DNA from: Gracilimonas tropica DSM 19535
GTDB taxonomy: Bacteria > Bacteroidota > Rhodothermia > Balneolales > Balneolaceae
Direction of reading: 5' to 3'
NCBI RefSeq assembly: GCF_000375425.1
Contig: NZ_AQXG01000010.1
Span: 60,706 to 124,705, forward strand
Length of the DNA: 64,000 bases
The translations under genes and the position numbers were made by a program. A model generated the notes under the pieces. That model was not told the origin of the DNA and searched no databases. It worked only from the letters and a program-made list of their open reading frames with translations. Below are positions 1 to 6,039 of this stretch, piece after piece. How positions within the stretch are numbered: position 1 is the stretch's first letter; the number at the start of each line of letters is the position of its first letter.

Positions 1-1103
1 ACGGTTACTCCTCGTGCAATCCCAATAATGAAACAAACACCCAGCAGGTCTTTGGCCCCATCCACGAATTCCCGAATGAAATCCCGTTCGTTGATCCGCA
101 ACAGAAAACCCATCAAAATGGAGGAGATGAGAAATAAGGTCGTCATTTCAGCCAGCCACCAGCCCAGAATGGCCACACCATAGATCATCACCCCAAAAGT
201 GCCGCCAAATAAGGTGAGCAGCAGGATTGTTTTCAAAGGCAAAGTTGAGATAGACCGATCAATCTTGACAACTGAAAATGGATTATCGTTTTCGGAATCT
301 CCTTTCAACAGGGAAAATGAAGCATTGGATTTTACTTTTTTTGCGTATCGGTTTATGTAGATCAGGGAGGCTGTAATTCCTATAAATAACATCCCAAGGC
401 GGCTGCTCAATCCTACCGTCCAGTCGATGCCGGCAATATCGGAAGCGATGATGGTTGAAAAAGGATTCGTAGTGCTGGCCATCACACCCAAGTGGGAGCC
501 GATCACAATGACGGCCAAGGGAACCAACCGATCGTATCCCGCCGCCAGAAAAACGGGCACTAAAAGCGGATAAAAAGCGAGGGTCTCCTCAGCCATCCCA
601 TAGGTTGAGCCACCGATTGCCATCAAAACCGCCACTATAATAATGAGAATGACTTCTCTTTCTTCCAGCTTTCCGGCGAGGAAGGCAATGCCCTCATCCA
701 GCGCTCCGGAATGATTAAAAACCCCGATGAATCCACCGATCATGAGCACCAGCAGTATGATGTCAATCACATCGTACATTCCCAAAATGGGGGCCATGAA
801 CACATCGATAATTCCCTGCGGATCAGACTCGATGGTTTCGTATGTGCCCGGTACAGATACCGATCGTGTGATTGCGCCACTTTTAAATTTCTCCAGCTCT
901 ATGTTGATGTTTAGATCCTGAAGCGTCTGTTCGGTGGCCTCCAGTTTTTGGATTCCATCCGGTGAATTCAGCTCAAATATTTCTTCACCCGCATTATAGT
1001 TTATGGTATGATACGTTCCGGCTGGCAGTAGCCAGGTCGCAACGGCAGCCAGTGCAATCACGAGCATCAATACGGTGTAAGGAGAAGGGAATTTTAATTT
1101 CAT
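1..1103 (-). CDS. YfcC-family / C4-dicarboxylate-carrier-like membrane transporter, 3' end outside window
   Basis: Reading the minus strand from the ATG at 1103 gives 367 codons without a stop, running off the left edge, so the gene is partial at its C-terminus. The product starts with an N-terminal membrane segment (residues about 8-27), a periplasmic-looking stretch of about 80 residues, then a series of hydrophobic helices. The stretch GGSTYGMAEETLAFYPLLVP is typical of the YfcC/C4-dicarboxylate anaerobic carrier family, thought to move amino or organic acids across the inner membrane. The substrate cannot be told. It diverges from carA; a shared promoter region lies in 1104-1300. Confidence 0.75.
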   Translation of the reverse strand, partial: MKLKFPSPYTVLMLVIALAAVATWLLPAGTYHTINYNAGEEIFELNSPDGIQKLEATEQTLQDLNINIELEKFKSGAITRSVSVPGTYETIESDPQGIIDVFMAPILGMYDVIDIILLVLMIGGFIGVFNHSGALDEGIAFLAGKLEEREVILIIIVAVLMAIGGSTYGMAEETLAFYPLLVPVFLAAGYDRLVPLAVIVIGSHLGVMASTTNPFSTIIASDIAGIDWTVGLSSRLGMLFIGITASLIYINRYAKKVKSNASFSLLKGDSENDNPFSVVKIDRSISTLPLKTILLLTLFGGTFGVMIYGVAILGWWLAEMTTLFLISSILMGFLLRINERDFIREFVDGAKDLLGVCFIIGIARGVT

Positions 1104-1214
1104 CAAAAGATTTTTTTCTGTGAATGGGAACCAAAAGTCTGTATTTATTTTCTAAAATTCAGATTTAAAACAGAGTATTTCATTTCCCGGGCCTCAAAAA
1201 ACCTCTAATCTTAA

Positions 1215-1245
1215 TTGAAACAAAAATTCCCTCTCCTTATCTTAG
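1215..1245 (+). promoter_or_regulatory. Candidate Bacteroidota-type promoter for the carA leader
   Basis: TTG at 1215-1217 is followed after 20 bases by TATCTTAG at 1238-1245, close to the phylum consensus TTTG-N19-21-TAnnTTTG; the two tRNA genes in this window carry TATCTTTG in the same role. The predicted start would be near 1252, giving a carA leader of about 400 bases. The match is one base off in the -7 box, so this is a moderate-to-weak call. Confidence 0.35.
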
Positions 1246-1301
1246 TGAAACTTCAAATGAAGCACTCACTCTAATTAACGATTTAGCAATCCATAGTTTA
1301 A

Positions 1302-1403
1302 ATGTATCACAACGGCGAAGCCTCAAAAAAAGGAGGTCGCAGTCGTGATGGTATTTTTTTTACCTATTCATATTATTTCCCAAATCCGACGCGGTTTCCG
1401 TAG
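1302..1403 (+). CDS. Putative 33-residue leader peptide upstream of carA
   Basis: A short open frame starts at ATG 1302 and stops with TAG at 1401-1403, inside the loop of the terminator hairpin 1382-1411. Near its end it encodes IFFTYSYYF and then ends TRFP. Eight T in a row (1354-1361) and a generally U-rich stretch precede the hairpin. Ribosome-coupled attenuators have this arrangement: pyrL upstream of pyrBI with a U-rich pause tract, or pheL with Phe codons. There is no clear ribosome site, which is common in this phylum. It could be chance; the position relative to the terminator is the main support. Confidence 0.35.
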   Translation: MYHNGEASKKGGRSRDGIFFTYSYYFPNPTRFP

Positions 1404-1416
1404 TCGGATTTTTTTT
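1382..1416 (+). terminator. Intrinsic terminator in the carA leader (possible attenuator)
   Basis: AAATCCGAC (1382-1390) pairs with GTCGGATTT (1403-1411), with a small CGG/CCG inner stem in the loop, and the T run extends through 1409-1416. It points toward carA and lies about 235 bases before the carA start, where no upstream plus-strand gene needs ending. It therefore suits premature termination of the carA transcript or of a small RNA. Confidence 0.6.
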
Positions 1417-1432
1417 GACCTAAAATTTCCAT

Positions 1433-1597
1433 TCGCTCCAACGCAAAGCGTATGGAGCGAGGCAAAACTTTCATTTGCACCAATACTTAGTGTTTGGAGT
1501 GCGAGAAATTTATTACCAACTGGTTACGATGCTCCGCGTCGTAACCAATTTAGTCCTCATTCTGTCCGATTGATATCGGCTGCAAGCATTTTGCTTG
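1433..1597 (+). repeat. Tandem array of short hairpins between leader terminator and carA
   Basis: Five inverted repeats follow each other. At 1433-1460 the stem starts TCGCTCCA with loop AAA. At 1477-1502 is a diverged version of the same hairpin. At 1521-1547 the stem starts TGGTTACGATGC with loop TCC, like the triloop palindromes elsewhere in this window. Two small ones lie at 1566-1579 and 1583-1597. An open frame through this array is judged not to be a gene. The array looks like REP-type repeats inserted in the carA leader; a role in RNA processing is possible but not shown. Confidence 0.6.
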
Positions 1598-1650
1598 TGA
1601 CAATCCTTCACTCAACTTCAATTTCACCAAACCAGAACTACATCTAACCC

Positions 1651-2748
1651 ATGTCTCTAAAAGAACGAAAAAAAGCCAAACTTGCACTCAGCGACGGAAC
1701 CGTGGTTCACGGAGAAGCTATCGGTCACGATGGTATTACCGGTGGCGAGCTGTGTTTTAATACCAGCATGACCGGCTACCAGGAGATCTTCACCGATCCC
1801 AGTTACTACGGTCAGCTCATGATGATGACCTATCCACATATCGGAAACTATGGTACCATGCCCCGGGATGATGAAGCCCGCAAAGTGATGGTGGCGGGAG
1901 TTATCTGTAGGGCCTTTTCTCATGAATATAGCAACGGAATGGCCGACCGGAGTCTACAGGAATATCTTGAGGATAATGAGATCACCGGAATTTCAGGCGT
2001 TGATACCCGGATGCTGGTTCGTCATATCCGCGAAAAAGGCGTGATGAATGCCGTGATCTCCAGTACGGAAATGGACGAAGACAAACTCGTTCAAATGGCC
2101 AAAGACTGGGATGATATGGAAGGACTGGAGCTGGCAACGAAAGTCACCCGATCTGAAGCTCAGACCGTCAATGGAAAAGACGATTTCCGCGTAGCAGCTT
2201 TTGATTACGGGATCAAACAGAATATTATCAACAATTTGAATAAGCGTGGTTGTACGCTGCGGATCTTTCCGGCAAAGACTTCAGTCGAAGAGATCAAAGA
2301 ATGGGAAGCCGATGGCTACTTTTTCAGTAACGGACCCGGGGATCCTCAGGCCACCGCCGAGTATGCTCTTGAAGCTGTGAATTACGCAAAAAGCACCGGC
2401 AAACCTGTTTTTGGAATTTGTCTCGGACATCAATTGATGGCCCTTAGCGAGGGACTCAAAACCACCAAGATGTTTGTGGGTCACCGAGGAGCCAATCAAC
2501 CCGTGAAAAACCTGTCAACCGGTTTGGTAGAAATTTCAACCCAGAACCACGGTTTTGCCGTCGATGAAGATTCGCTGGATGAGAACATTGCGGAAGTCAC
2601 CCACATCAACCTAAACGACAATACCATTGAAGGGCTGAAGTTCAAAAACTTCCCGGGATTTTCGGTGCAGTATCACCCCGAAGCCTCACCCGGACCACAT
2701 GACTCAGCGTACCTGTTCGATCAGTTTATAGATATGATGCGGAAGTGA
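1651..2748 (+). CDS. carA: Carbamoyl-phosphate synthase small (glutaminase) subunit
   Basis: The 365-residue protein hydrolyses glutamine and passes ammonia to CarB for carbamoyl phosphate synthesis (pyrimidines and arginine). The N-terminal CarA domain carries GGELCFNTSMTGYQEI. The C-terminal class I amidotransferase domain has the nucleophile Cys257 in GICLGHQ and the His/Glu of the triad in QYHPEASPGPHDS. Length fits the family. carB follows after 230 bases filled with repeats, so the two are probably still co-transcribed. The long leader upstream holds a terminator and may regulate both genes. Confidence 0.96.
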   Translation: MSLKERKKAKLALSDGTVVHGEAIGHDGITGGELCFNTSMTGYQEIFTDPSYYGQLMMMTYPHIGNYGTMPRDDEARKVMVAGVICRAFSHEYSNGMADRSLQEYLEDNEITGISGVDTRMLVRHIREKGVMNAVISSTEMDEDKLVQMAKDWDDMEGLELATKVTRSEAQTVNGKDDFRVAAFDYGIKQNIINNLNKRGCTLRIFPAKTSVEEIKEWEADGYFFSNGPGDPQATAEYALEAVNYAKSTGKPVFGICLGHQLMALSEGLKTTKMFVGHRGANQPVKNLSTGLVEISTQNHGFAVDEDSLDENIAEVTHINLNDNTIEGLKFKNFPGFSVQYHPEASPGPHDSAYLFDQFIDMMRK

Positions 2749-2794
2749 ACATTGAAGAATGAACAGCTAAAACTGAAATAAAGAAGAAGAAAAA

Positions 2795-2845
2795 TCCTCC
2801 CTGGAGGGAGGTGTCGGACTGAGCGAATGCGAAGTCGGGCGAAGG
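2795..2845. repeat. 51-bp dispersed repeat, copy 1 (second copy at 23417)
   Basis: The segment starts with a hairpin CCTCCCTGGAGGGAGG and continues with GGACTGAGCG and GCGAAGTC. It matches 23417-23467 over 51 bases with about six differences by eye. It sits between carA and carB. No transposase is adjacent to either copy, so it is a non-autonomous dispersed repeat. Confidence 0.8.
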
Positions 2846-2883
2846 GTGTAAGTAGCCAGTGGCTTTGCACTTTTCCCATACAG

Positions 2884-2928
2884 GAGGCAGAGCCTCTATC
2901 AAGCGTTACGCAGCAGAGCTACGTAACG
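2884..2928. repeat. Two triloop palindromes (AGA class) in the carA-carB gap
   Basis: GAGGC-AGA-GCCTC lies at 2884-2896 and a longer palindrome with stem CGTTACGCAGC, loop AGA, at 2904-2928. The same pair of motifs, in either orientation (AGA or TCT/TCC loop), recurs at 21397-21532, 26548-26590 and 34644-34688. This marks a REP-like family spread between genes. Confidence 0.75.
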
Positions 2929-2978
2929 AGAACCAACATTGAACTCACTTTACCACAAAACTAACCACTCAAAAAAAC

Positions 2979-5807
2979 ATGCCCAGACGCGACGACATCC
3001 ACAAAATTTTGATCATTGGTTCAGGACCTATTGTAATTGGTCAGGCTTGCGAATTTGACTACTCGGGTTCTCAAGCCTGCCGCTCTCTTCAAGAAGAGGG
3101 ATACGAAATTGTGCTTATCAACTCAAATCCGGCCACCATTATGACGGATCCGATCATGGCTGATGCCGTGTATATGCTGCCGATGACCACTGATTCCATC
3201 CGGGAAATTGTAGCCAAGGAAAAACCCGATGCGGTACTCCCTACCATGGGCGGTCAAACCGGCTTGAACCTCTGCCGGGACCTGGAAAAAGAGAATTTCT
3301 GGAAAGATAATAATGTGAAGATCATCGGGGTAGATATTGATGCGGTCGAGCTTACTGAAGATCGCCAATTATTCCGCGATAAGATGGAAGAGATCGGTAT
3401 CGAACAGTGTAAAAGTAGAACAGCTCAATCTCTCCTTGATGCCAAAGAGATCAAAGAAGAATTGGGAGGCCTGCCGATCGTGATCCGCCCTTCGTTTACC
3501 ATGGGTGGAGCCGGTGGCGGAATCGTGTGGAATGAAGATGAGTTTGAGCGAAAGGTGCTGCGCGGACTGGAAATGAGTCCGGTGCACCAGGTGCTGATCG
3601 AGGAATCTATTTTTGGGTGGAAGGAATATGAGTTGGAGCTTTTACGGGATGCCAACGATAATGTGATCATCATCTGCTCCATCGAAAACATGGATCCAAT
3701 GGGCGTTCACACCGGAGATTCTGTTACGGTGGCTCCAACCCAAACCCTTACCGACAAGCAGCTGCAACACATGCGCGATTCGGCCATCAAGATGATGCGC
3801 AGTATCGGAACCTTCGCCGGCGGGTGTAACGTGCAGTTTGCGATGGAGCCGGGAAGTGACCGGTTGGTTGCGATCGAGATCAATCCAAGGGTAAGTCGTT
3901 CTTCGGCACTCGCTTCGAAAGCAACGGGGTATCCGATCGCGAAAGTAGCCACTAAGCTGGCCGTTGGTTATACACTGGACGAGCTCAAAAATCAGATCAC
4001 GGGCACCACTTCAGCTTGTTTTGAGCCAAGTATTGATTATGTGGTGTGCAAGATCCCACGATTCAACTTCGATAAATTCCCCGGTGTGGATGAAGAGCTG
4101 ACCACACAAATGAAAGCTGTGGGTGAAGTGATGTCGATCGGGCGAAATTTTCCGGAAGCACTAAACAAAGCCTGGCAATCACTGGAAGTTGGTCGCGATG
4201 GATTGGGCGCAGACGGCTACGAAGAATTTGATCGAAAAACCGTTCGCGAGCGTCTCCTGAAACCCTACTGGGATCGCTCCATGCAAATCCGAAATGCTTT
4301 CAAGTTGGGTGCTTCGGTAGAAGAAATTGCGGATATTACCAAAGTAGATCCGTGGTTCCTGCAGCAGATTCGGTATATGGTTACTCTGGAGAATCGCACC
4401 GAAGGGCAGGCGCTTAAAGATATTACGAAAGACGATTTCTTTGAGCTGAAACAAGCCGGATTCTCTGATTCACAAATCGCGTATCTGCTTAGCAAAAGCG
4501 GTGAAAAAGTGGACGACAAGAAAGTCCGTGATCGCCGAAAAGAATTAGGACTCACCCCATCCTTCAAAATGGTAGATACTTGTGCGGCTGAATTCCCAGC
4601 TCAAACCCCATACTACTATTCTGCTTACGAAGGGGAGAATGAAAGCGAAGTCACCGACAAGAAAAAAGTGTTGATCCTGGGTAGCGGCCCGAACCGAATT
4701 GGACAGGGTATCGAGTTTGATTACTCTTGCACGCATGCGGTTCTGGCTGCCAAAGAAATGGGCTACGAAGCCATTATGGTGAATTGTAATCCCGAGACCG
4801 TTTCCACCGACTTCGATTTTGCGGACAAGCTCTACTTTGAGCCGGTGTATTGGGAGCGCGTGCTGGATATCATCGACCACGAAAAACCCGAAGGAGTCAT
4901 CCTGCAGGTGGGTGGACAAACGGCGCTCAAGCTCGGAAAACGGTTTGTGGAAGAAGGCATCAAGATCTTTGGGACCGATTTTGCCATGATCGACTTTGCC
5001 GAAGACCGCGGCGAGTTCTCCAAATTCCTGCAAAAACTTGACATCCCGTTTCCTGAATATGGAACGGCCTTTGAAGTGGAAGATGCTGTAAAAATCGCCA
5101 ACAAAATTGGCTATCCCGTGCTGATTCGCCCAAGTTACGTGCTTGGAGGACAGGGCATGCGGATCGCCGTGAAAGAGGAAGAACTGCGAAAATATGTAGC
5201 CAACATCCTGAAAACCCATCCCGAAAATGCCTTCCTGATCGATAAATACCTGGAGCAGGCGATCGAGGTAGATGTGGATTCGGTGTATGATGGCGGTCAG
5301 CTTCATATTGCCGGAATCATGCAGCACATCGAGCCCGCCGGAGTTCATTCCGGAGATTCCACGGCGGTCATTCCACCCTATTCGCTTAGTGATGAAGTCA
5401 TCAAGACCATTGAGGAATATCAGGAGAAGATCGCGGAGAATATGGAGATCCTTGGATTCCTGAATGTGCAGTACGCGGTGAAGGATGAGAAGGTGTACGT
5501 GCTGGAAGCCAATCCTCGTACCACGCGAACCATTCCATTTCTGGCCAAAGCCACCCAGCGTCCGGAAGCAGCCATTGGTGTGAAGGTGATGCTCGGCGCC
5601 AAGCTCAAGGAATTCGACCTGGAATCGAAGCTGGAAAATTGGGCCATCAAAGAGCCGGTGTTCCCATTCGATAAATTCCCGGAAGTGAAGAAGGAGCTCG
5701 GTCCGGAAATGAAATCAACAGGGGAAAGCATTTACTTTGCCAAGGATTTCAACGATGAGCACTTCAAGAAACCTTACGAGTTCAAGAGCTTGTATTTATC
5801 CAAATAA
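2979..5807 (+). CDS. carB: Carbamoyl-phosphate synthase large subunit lacking the allosteric domain
   Basis: The protein uses ammonia from CarA, bicarbonate and two ATP to make carbamoyl phosphate. Two homologous ATP-grasp halves are visible, beginning [20 protein letters not shown] and [21 protein letters not shown], with [10 protein letters not shown] and SYVLGGQGM loops. At 942 residues it stops just after the second synthetase half ([12 protein letters not shown]). The E. coli enzyme is about 1073 residues and ends in an MGS-like domain that binds UMP, IMP and ornithine. No coding continuation follows the stop at 5805-5807, so this is not a recent frameshift. Shorter CarB proteins are recalled from some Bacteroidota. 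Confidence 0.95.
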
Positions 5808-5887
5808 TATAAACCTTGAATCAGCAGCTTCCCTCGTATCCTAAGTATTTTTAGGGACTTTAAACAACAGTAGCTCAGCATCATTAA

Positions 5888-5917
5888 AGGCTCCTTTTTG
5901 AAGGAGCCTTTTTTTGT
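5888..5917 (+). terminator. Intrinsic terminator after carB
   Basis: AAAGGCTCC and GGAGCCTTT form a stem with a short T-rich loop, followed by seven T. It closes the car operon, 80 bases after the carB stop. Confidence 0.88.
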
Positions 5918-6039
5918 AAATCGCATATAGGGAAATCACTACATGCGGTTGGGGATATACAGTTCAACTTAAAAATGAGCTTTGCATAAACTGTTTTTCA
6001 CAATAACAATCATTGTGACAATAAATTTAGGAGAGAACA

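Follow-up and report, generated by a model that had tools for sequence, protein, structure and literature searches.

The carAB genes of Gracilimonas tropica are probably controlled by a translation-coupled attenuator that resembles the one at E. coli pyrBI and is also coupled to the translation of carA; the supply of pyrimidine nucleotides is the likeliest signal. The leader lies in a stretch of 64,000 nucleotides from strain DSM 19535, which we call the window (Table 1). An attenuator before carA had been suggested in a preliminary description of this DNA, and comparison supports it: an intrinsic terminator stands before carA in all 87 Balneolaceae leaders that could be read, and a frame that crosses it occurs far more often than in shuffled sequences. 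The same comparison, made on predicted features, supports the end of the leader frame at carA and a hairpin at the leader start codon.

Table 1. Positions of the carAB leader features and genes in the window
Feature	Position	Strand	Details and basis
Predicted promoter	1215-1245	+	-33 TTG (1215-1217), -7 TATCTTAG (1238-1245), spacer 20
Conserved box TTAGCAATCCATAG in the 5' leader	1283-1296	+	alignment of long-type leaders; part of model R1
Predicted hairpin P2 around the leader start codon (contains GGAGG and ATG)	1304-1354	+	fold; covariation in the equivalent hairpin of relatives
Conserved leader frame	1348-1647	+	99 codons; ATG 1348, TAA 1645-1647, stop 3 nt before carA
Intrinsic terminator, 9-bp stem and T8	1382-1416	+	hairpin 1382-1411, T8 1409-1416; fold and family conservation
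carA	1651-2748	+	365 aa; TIGR01368 above cut-off
carB	2979-5807	+	942 aa, without MGS domain; curated model

How might such a leader work? Transcription would begin near 1250 and then reach the terminator, and the leader frame would be translated over the terminator up to the start of carA. A ribosome close behind RNA polymerase would cover the hairpin during synthesis of the T8 run, giving read-through, and ribosomes that cross the terminator would reach the carA start codon. If the polymerase is ahead, or the leader is untranslated, the hairpin would form and transcription would stop. By analogy with E. coli pyrBI, the polymerase would move more slowly through the G-poor leader when pyrimidines are scarce, the ribosome would stay close behind it, and carAB would be expressed. 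The P2-type hairpin, present in the genus of the window and in seven others, may tune the frequency of leader translation. We infer that the leader is translated, as we do the direction of control and its signal, be it pyrimidine nucleotides or PyrR.

In E. coli, feedback by UMP is carried by the MGS domain. The genes of the window are identified as carA and carB by curated models; this carB is without the C-terminal MGS domain, which is not among its Pfam matches, and in all 11 genus genomes MGS matches are found on contigs other than that of carA. Both the missing domain and a leader frame that stops at the beginning of carA are in keeping with control at gene level. On the opposite strand, the divergent gene encodes a DcuC-family carrier.

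A terminator within an open frame

The terminator was found where the preliminary description had placed it. carA was matched, at the threshold used, in 89 of 93 family genomes; in two of these (G052 and G062) the contig breaks off before the leader is complete, leaving the 87 readable leaders. Upstream of carA these leaders share a hairpin of the slightly loose pattern TCCG[A/G]C...CGGA followed by a T-run; one of them (G022) was missed by a rule that admits no mismatch in the stem and was recovered by the pattern. The T-run is exactly eight in 86 leaders and nine in one, though leaders and loops vary, and the fourth stem pair is A-T in 64, G-T in 22 and G-C in a single leader. Folding energies of the matched strings lie between -10.4 and -15.5 kcal/mol. 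In the window, positions 1290-1420 have a more stable fold than any of 200 shuffles (z -3.71). A scan of positions 1-6000 counted promoter-like and terminator-like sites no more often than in shuffles and left the 1382-1416 hairpin unlisted, its loop being 12 nt where the limit of the scan is 8; the case rests on conservation. A second match to the terminator pattern was not found in the window's own genome, and minimum-energy folds of 1290-1420 and 1250-1650 contained no antiterminator.

The conserved leader frame, entered in the mechanical list of open reading frames as starting at GTG 1345, has no Pfam match. An ATG equivalent to that at 1348 is present in 11 of 11 genus genomes, and the frame that it opens crosses the terminator; the first base of its stop codon is 6 nt upstream of the carA ATG in ten of these genomes and 17 nt upstream in one, while the distance from hairpin to carA ranges from 96 to 281 nt. 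Across the family, an ATG placed 21-62 nt before the hairpin opens a frame through the terminator in 75 of 85 loci (dinucleotide shuffles of both flanks: mean 19.8, maximum 32), and in 71 of the 85 a frame of this type stops within -20 to +23 of the carA ATG (mean 5.6, maximum 13); being related, these loci are not independent of one another, yet the genera differ in where the frame starts, in which frame it is and in the length of the gap. The 85 are the readable leaders less G022 and G058, the latter having fewer than 80 nt before the hairpin. When the gap between hairpin and carA is at least 85 nt, 33 of 34 loci have a through-frame that ends at carA, against 0.84 in shuffles. If shuffling is confined to the sequence behind the T-run, a through-frame ending at carA is expected in 27.9 of the 85 loci and in 3.7 of the 34.

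How widespread is the arrangement? At least one locus with a through-frame occurs in 17 of 20 genera, g17 having it in one of three loci. The genera without an ATG through-frame (g9, g16 and g18) are represented by one tested locus each, and genus g3 has one in only 2 of 11 loci. Leaders in the listed census loci are 30-117 codons long. Inspection by eye of some g3 members shows an open frame without a canonical start after the predicted promoter.

Loci outside the family number 80, picked by hand among the matches listed (16 from the order, 40 from the class and 24 from the phylum). By one criterion, a terminator lies within 300 nt of carA in 14 of 16 loci in the rest of the order, 36 of 40 in the rest of the class and 7 of 24 in other classes. 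In the other families of the order an ATG through-frame ends at carA in 9 of 14 loci (shuffles 1.73, maximum 6). In the rest of the class a through-frame is no commoner than in shuffles, with 6 of 36 loci (shuffles mean 5.83, maximum 14), though a terminator is usual there, and in other classes its 2 of 7 loci are not above shuffles (mean 1.31, maximum 4). Regulation outside the order must therefore differ or be absent.

The surroundings of the hairpin also vary. In other Balneolales families a DUF5989 gene precedes the carA hairpin, recognized by a Pfam match in one locus (L067, 1710-1868) and by eye in L063, L065, L068, L069, L071 and L087, and the leader frames begin where this gene ends or shortly afterwards. 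In the rest of the class (L209-L248), 36 of 40 loci have a hairpin of another build, mostly CCTTCCC...GGGAGG with T5-T9, at a distance of 19-190 nt from carA; no evidence of a leader frame accompanying this hairpin was seen in those loci. Between the hairpin and carA of the window, within the open leader frame, are two palindromic repeats, at 1434-1459 and 1518-1550. The second has three looser relatives elsewhere in the genome and the first has no second match in the window; several genus leaders hold similar palindromes.

What of the 33-codon open reading frame at 1302-1403, proposed earlier as the leader peptide? It is present in the window, but its ATG and frame occur in 2 of 11 genus genomes, and this rules it out in that role. 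The T8 tract at 1354-1361 is likewise where it had been described, but, being found in one of 11 genus leaders, it is not conserved as a pause tract and was given up as one. The stop codon noted inside the terminator loop belongs to this non-conserved frame, and the richness in Phe and Tyr is a product of the T-rich tract, the peptide not being conserved. Comparison with relatives, which the preliminary description had recommended, thus keeps the terminator and not the frame at 1302.

The 5' leader and its possible inputs

The promoter-like pair reported earlier, TTGAAA and TATCTT at 1215-1243, is present, and can be read also as a -33/-7 pair of the Bacteroidota type. TATCTT is invariant across 29 aligned long-type leaders. 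For Flavobacterium johnsoniae, the available text of one study gives a -7 consensus of TAnnTTTG at -12 to -5 (PMC6847099). The predicted start of transcription in the window is near 1250.

Leaders of the long type occur in the genus of the window and in seven others (g2, g4, g5, g7, g10, g21 and one genome of g11). In them about 100 nt separate the promoter from the leader ATG, which comes after the conserved box and P2 with its purine-rich stretch and start codon. In most short-leader genomes, judged by eye, the ATG follows the -7 element by about 25-30 nt and there is no P2.

Covariation supports P2. The alignment consists of the 17 of 36 long-type leaders (15 of them distinct) that have equal length in this region, the window leader being outside it; 85.6% of its cells are paired, and 5 pairs and 12 cells are doubly changed. 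The covariation score is 0.236, reached by none of 500 shuffles, and versions of the structure slid along the alignment score at most 0.100, a comparison in which P2 is favoured because its structure was taken from the predicted fold of one aligned sequence. Two of the five measures are weaker, as doubly changed pairs were reached by 8 of 500 shuffles and further pair types by 212 of 500. A covariance model built from the same 17 leaders, R1, matches the 5' domain of the window at E 6.8e-9. Of the 91 genomes to which it was applied, 29 have the domain at carA, including 12 that were not used in building it, the window genome among them; in one genome (G041) the locus appears twice, near both contig ends. 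The stricter filters of the search may lose weak matches, and a single weak match was obtained away from carA (E 0.072). At the sensitivity of R1, the 5' domain is not common to several operons.

Other approaches to the 5' structure gave less. Pairing probability at the start codon did not separate long from short leaders, 0.61 versus 0.60 (mononucleotide shuffles 0.46 and 0.51), and RNAalifold found no useful structure in the 29-sequence alignment. Seven g19 genomes have a hairpin at the leader start, seen in single folds only. A helix P1 (CAAAGCT/AGCTTTG), plausible by eye, was rejected; by eye again, it is not fully paired in members such as G003, G004, G007 and G010.

It is conceivable, and we offer it tentatively, that the leader is a two-stage RNA switch with interchangeable inputs. 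The T8 terminator, crossed by a leader frame with its end at carA, would be its constant output and the 5' module would be genus-specific and set the frequency of leader translation, with a signal at the leader start producing read-through and then carA translation. The input would be a bare start in the short-leader genera, and the start-codon hairpin with the carA-specific box in the lineage of the window. Different 5' hairpins in g3, seen only by eye, would be a further input module of such a switch.

Might PyrR supply the signal? PyrR carrying a pyrimidine nucleotide would bind the 5' leader RNA, at P2 or the conserved box, and lower leader translation or favour the terminator, so that carAB is off when pyrimidines are plentiful. 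We find this rather doubtful, even with PyrR encoded in 88 of 93 family genomes, the copy in the window genome scoring above the curated PyrR cut-off, and pyrR lying directly upstream of pyrB in each of the 10 genus loci examined (L102, the eleventh, is outside the count). Eight genera share a conserved 5' domain that is specific to carA and shows covariation in its start-codon hairpin, which speaks for PyrR, but the short-leader genera, which are without this domain, still keep the terminator and the through-frame. Nor did any Rfam PyrR element match the leader: Rfam families, those elements included, gave no match at the gathering score in the window leader, three weak and unrelated matches far below the cut-offs when allowed up to E 10, and one weak unrelated match in 11 relatives up to E 1. 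A diverged PyrR site in the leader is possible. The short leader of pyrR itself, viewed by eye in the window genome (L106) and nine further genus loci, shows no terminator.

Insulation, codons and the nature of the signal

One would think that a terminator in this position could be an ordinary, constitutive one that insulates carA from upstream transcription, the leader frame then serving translational coupling only. In order-level relatives the hairpin shortly follows the upstream gene and could serve that gene, and other classes, where 7 of 24 loci have a terminator upstream of carA, are also in keeping with insulation. In the genus of the window, however, the predicted promoter is on the carA strand, with the divergent gene to one side of it and the hairpin to the other, so there is no same-strand upstream gene to terminate. 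Insulation, moreover, does not need a frame kept open across the hairpin, as it is in 75 of the 85 family loci, and we consider it improbable.

The translation-coupled attenuator that we prefer requires no particular codon, and the reading of the hairpin bears directly on this. Among the 71 family loci with a through-frame ending at carA, the hairpin is read as TCC-GAC (SDTVSVVGFF) in 42, as ATC-CGA (IRRGFRSRIFF) in 27 and as CCG-ACG in two, and the frame changes within genera g2, g5 and g11. Since species read the hairpin in different frames, no one codon can serve as the signal; the drifting frame speaks for a mechanism that requires nothing but a moving ribosome, and argues strongly against attenuation at Phe, Tyr or Arg codons. 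No conserved run of regulatory codons was found in the leaders, in which neither peptide nor frame is conserved. Attenuation at arginine codons, imaginable because the window hairpin encodes RRGFRSR, all 11 genus members read IRR[G/V][F/I]RSRIFF and carbamoyl phosphate also feeds arginine synthesis, is very improbable and was set aside, as other genera read the hairpin in other frames, only the 27 sharing this one, and the frame shifts inside three genera; the same holds for Phe or Tyr codons, Phe being the commonest residue before the hairpin (122 of 902), yet with no fixed one-codon run conserved. The earlier preference for attenuation of the pyrBI type over a type responsive to aminoacyl-tRNA is thereby upheld.

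The composition of the leader may bear on the signal. G makes up 7.9% of the sequence between the leader ATG and the hairpin against 15.3% between the T-run and carA, and the leader value of about 8% compares with 20% in the first 45 nt of the 34 mechanically listed window frames of at least 200 aa. T is mildly raised, to 33% versus 28% at the starts of the window frames, and no U-specific pause tract is evident. A G-poor leader would stay unstructured, and the speed of the polymerase would then depend on U, C and A; the leader might in this way sense pyrimidines. CATAT or CATAC occurs before the hairpin, up to 45 nt upstream, in 41 of 72 census leaders (shuffles 11.9, maximum 21), mostly 14-25 nt before the CCG of the hairpin.

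Relation to known systems

If the proposed attenuator is correct, carAB would be controlled by ribosomes overrunning a terminator in nearly the whole order, whose members are mostly salt-loving bacteria. The leaders would also be comparative evidence for functional coupling of transcription and translation in the Bacteroidota group, where we know of little work on such coupling. Attenuators of the pyrBI type that have no conserved peptide would be recognizable by a frame that drifts across the hairpin while remaining open and having its stop at the gene that follows. Our literature search, which covered few subscription papers, turned up no description of attenuation at carA in Balneolales or Bacteroidota, and the available portions of PMC2965389 and PMC9723704 make no mention of it in these bacteria.

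Several known leaders invite comparison. Those of the pheL and trpL type also combine a leader frame with an intrinsic terminator; as the available text of PMC4824070 has it, such a leader ends before the terminator, whereas the carA leader crosses it and is without conserved regulatory codons. The PyrR-regulated pyr leaders of the Bacillus type share with the carA leader a pyrimidine gene, a leader terminator and a PyrR encoded in the genome; they differ in that the carA leader is without a known PyrR RNA element and has a leader frame crossing the terminator. The carA (SRC-12-1) motif is likewise a candidate regulatory RNA directly upstream of carA. It is described as one extended imperfect hairpin in betaproteobacteria, in Polynucleobacter and its relatives (PMC8632094), thus in another phylum, and a terminator with a crossing frame is not mentioned in the available part of that description, on which alone the comparison was made.

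The closest parallel is pyrBI. Attenuation there needs no specific codons, and the pyrL leader has 44 codons. In the accounts available to us, the leader gene of E. coli contains the terminator, and termination is averted when coupling across this site is tight (PMC4824070, PMC5021804). The carA leader is like pyrL in having an intrinsic terminator inside a leader frame, in preceding a gene of the pyrimidine pathway and in its codon independence. It is unlike pyrL in the gene and lineage concerned, carA in Balneolales, in a hairpin frame that drifts, in a length of 30-117 codons rather than 44, in being without a strong U tract, and in the start-codon hairpin of some genera. The carA leader would thus be the pyrBI principle at work in another gene and another lineage, and what is new is the drifting frame, the position of its stop at the gene that follows and the additional start-codon hairpin of some genera.
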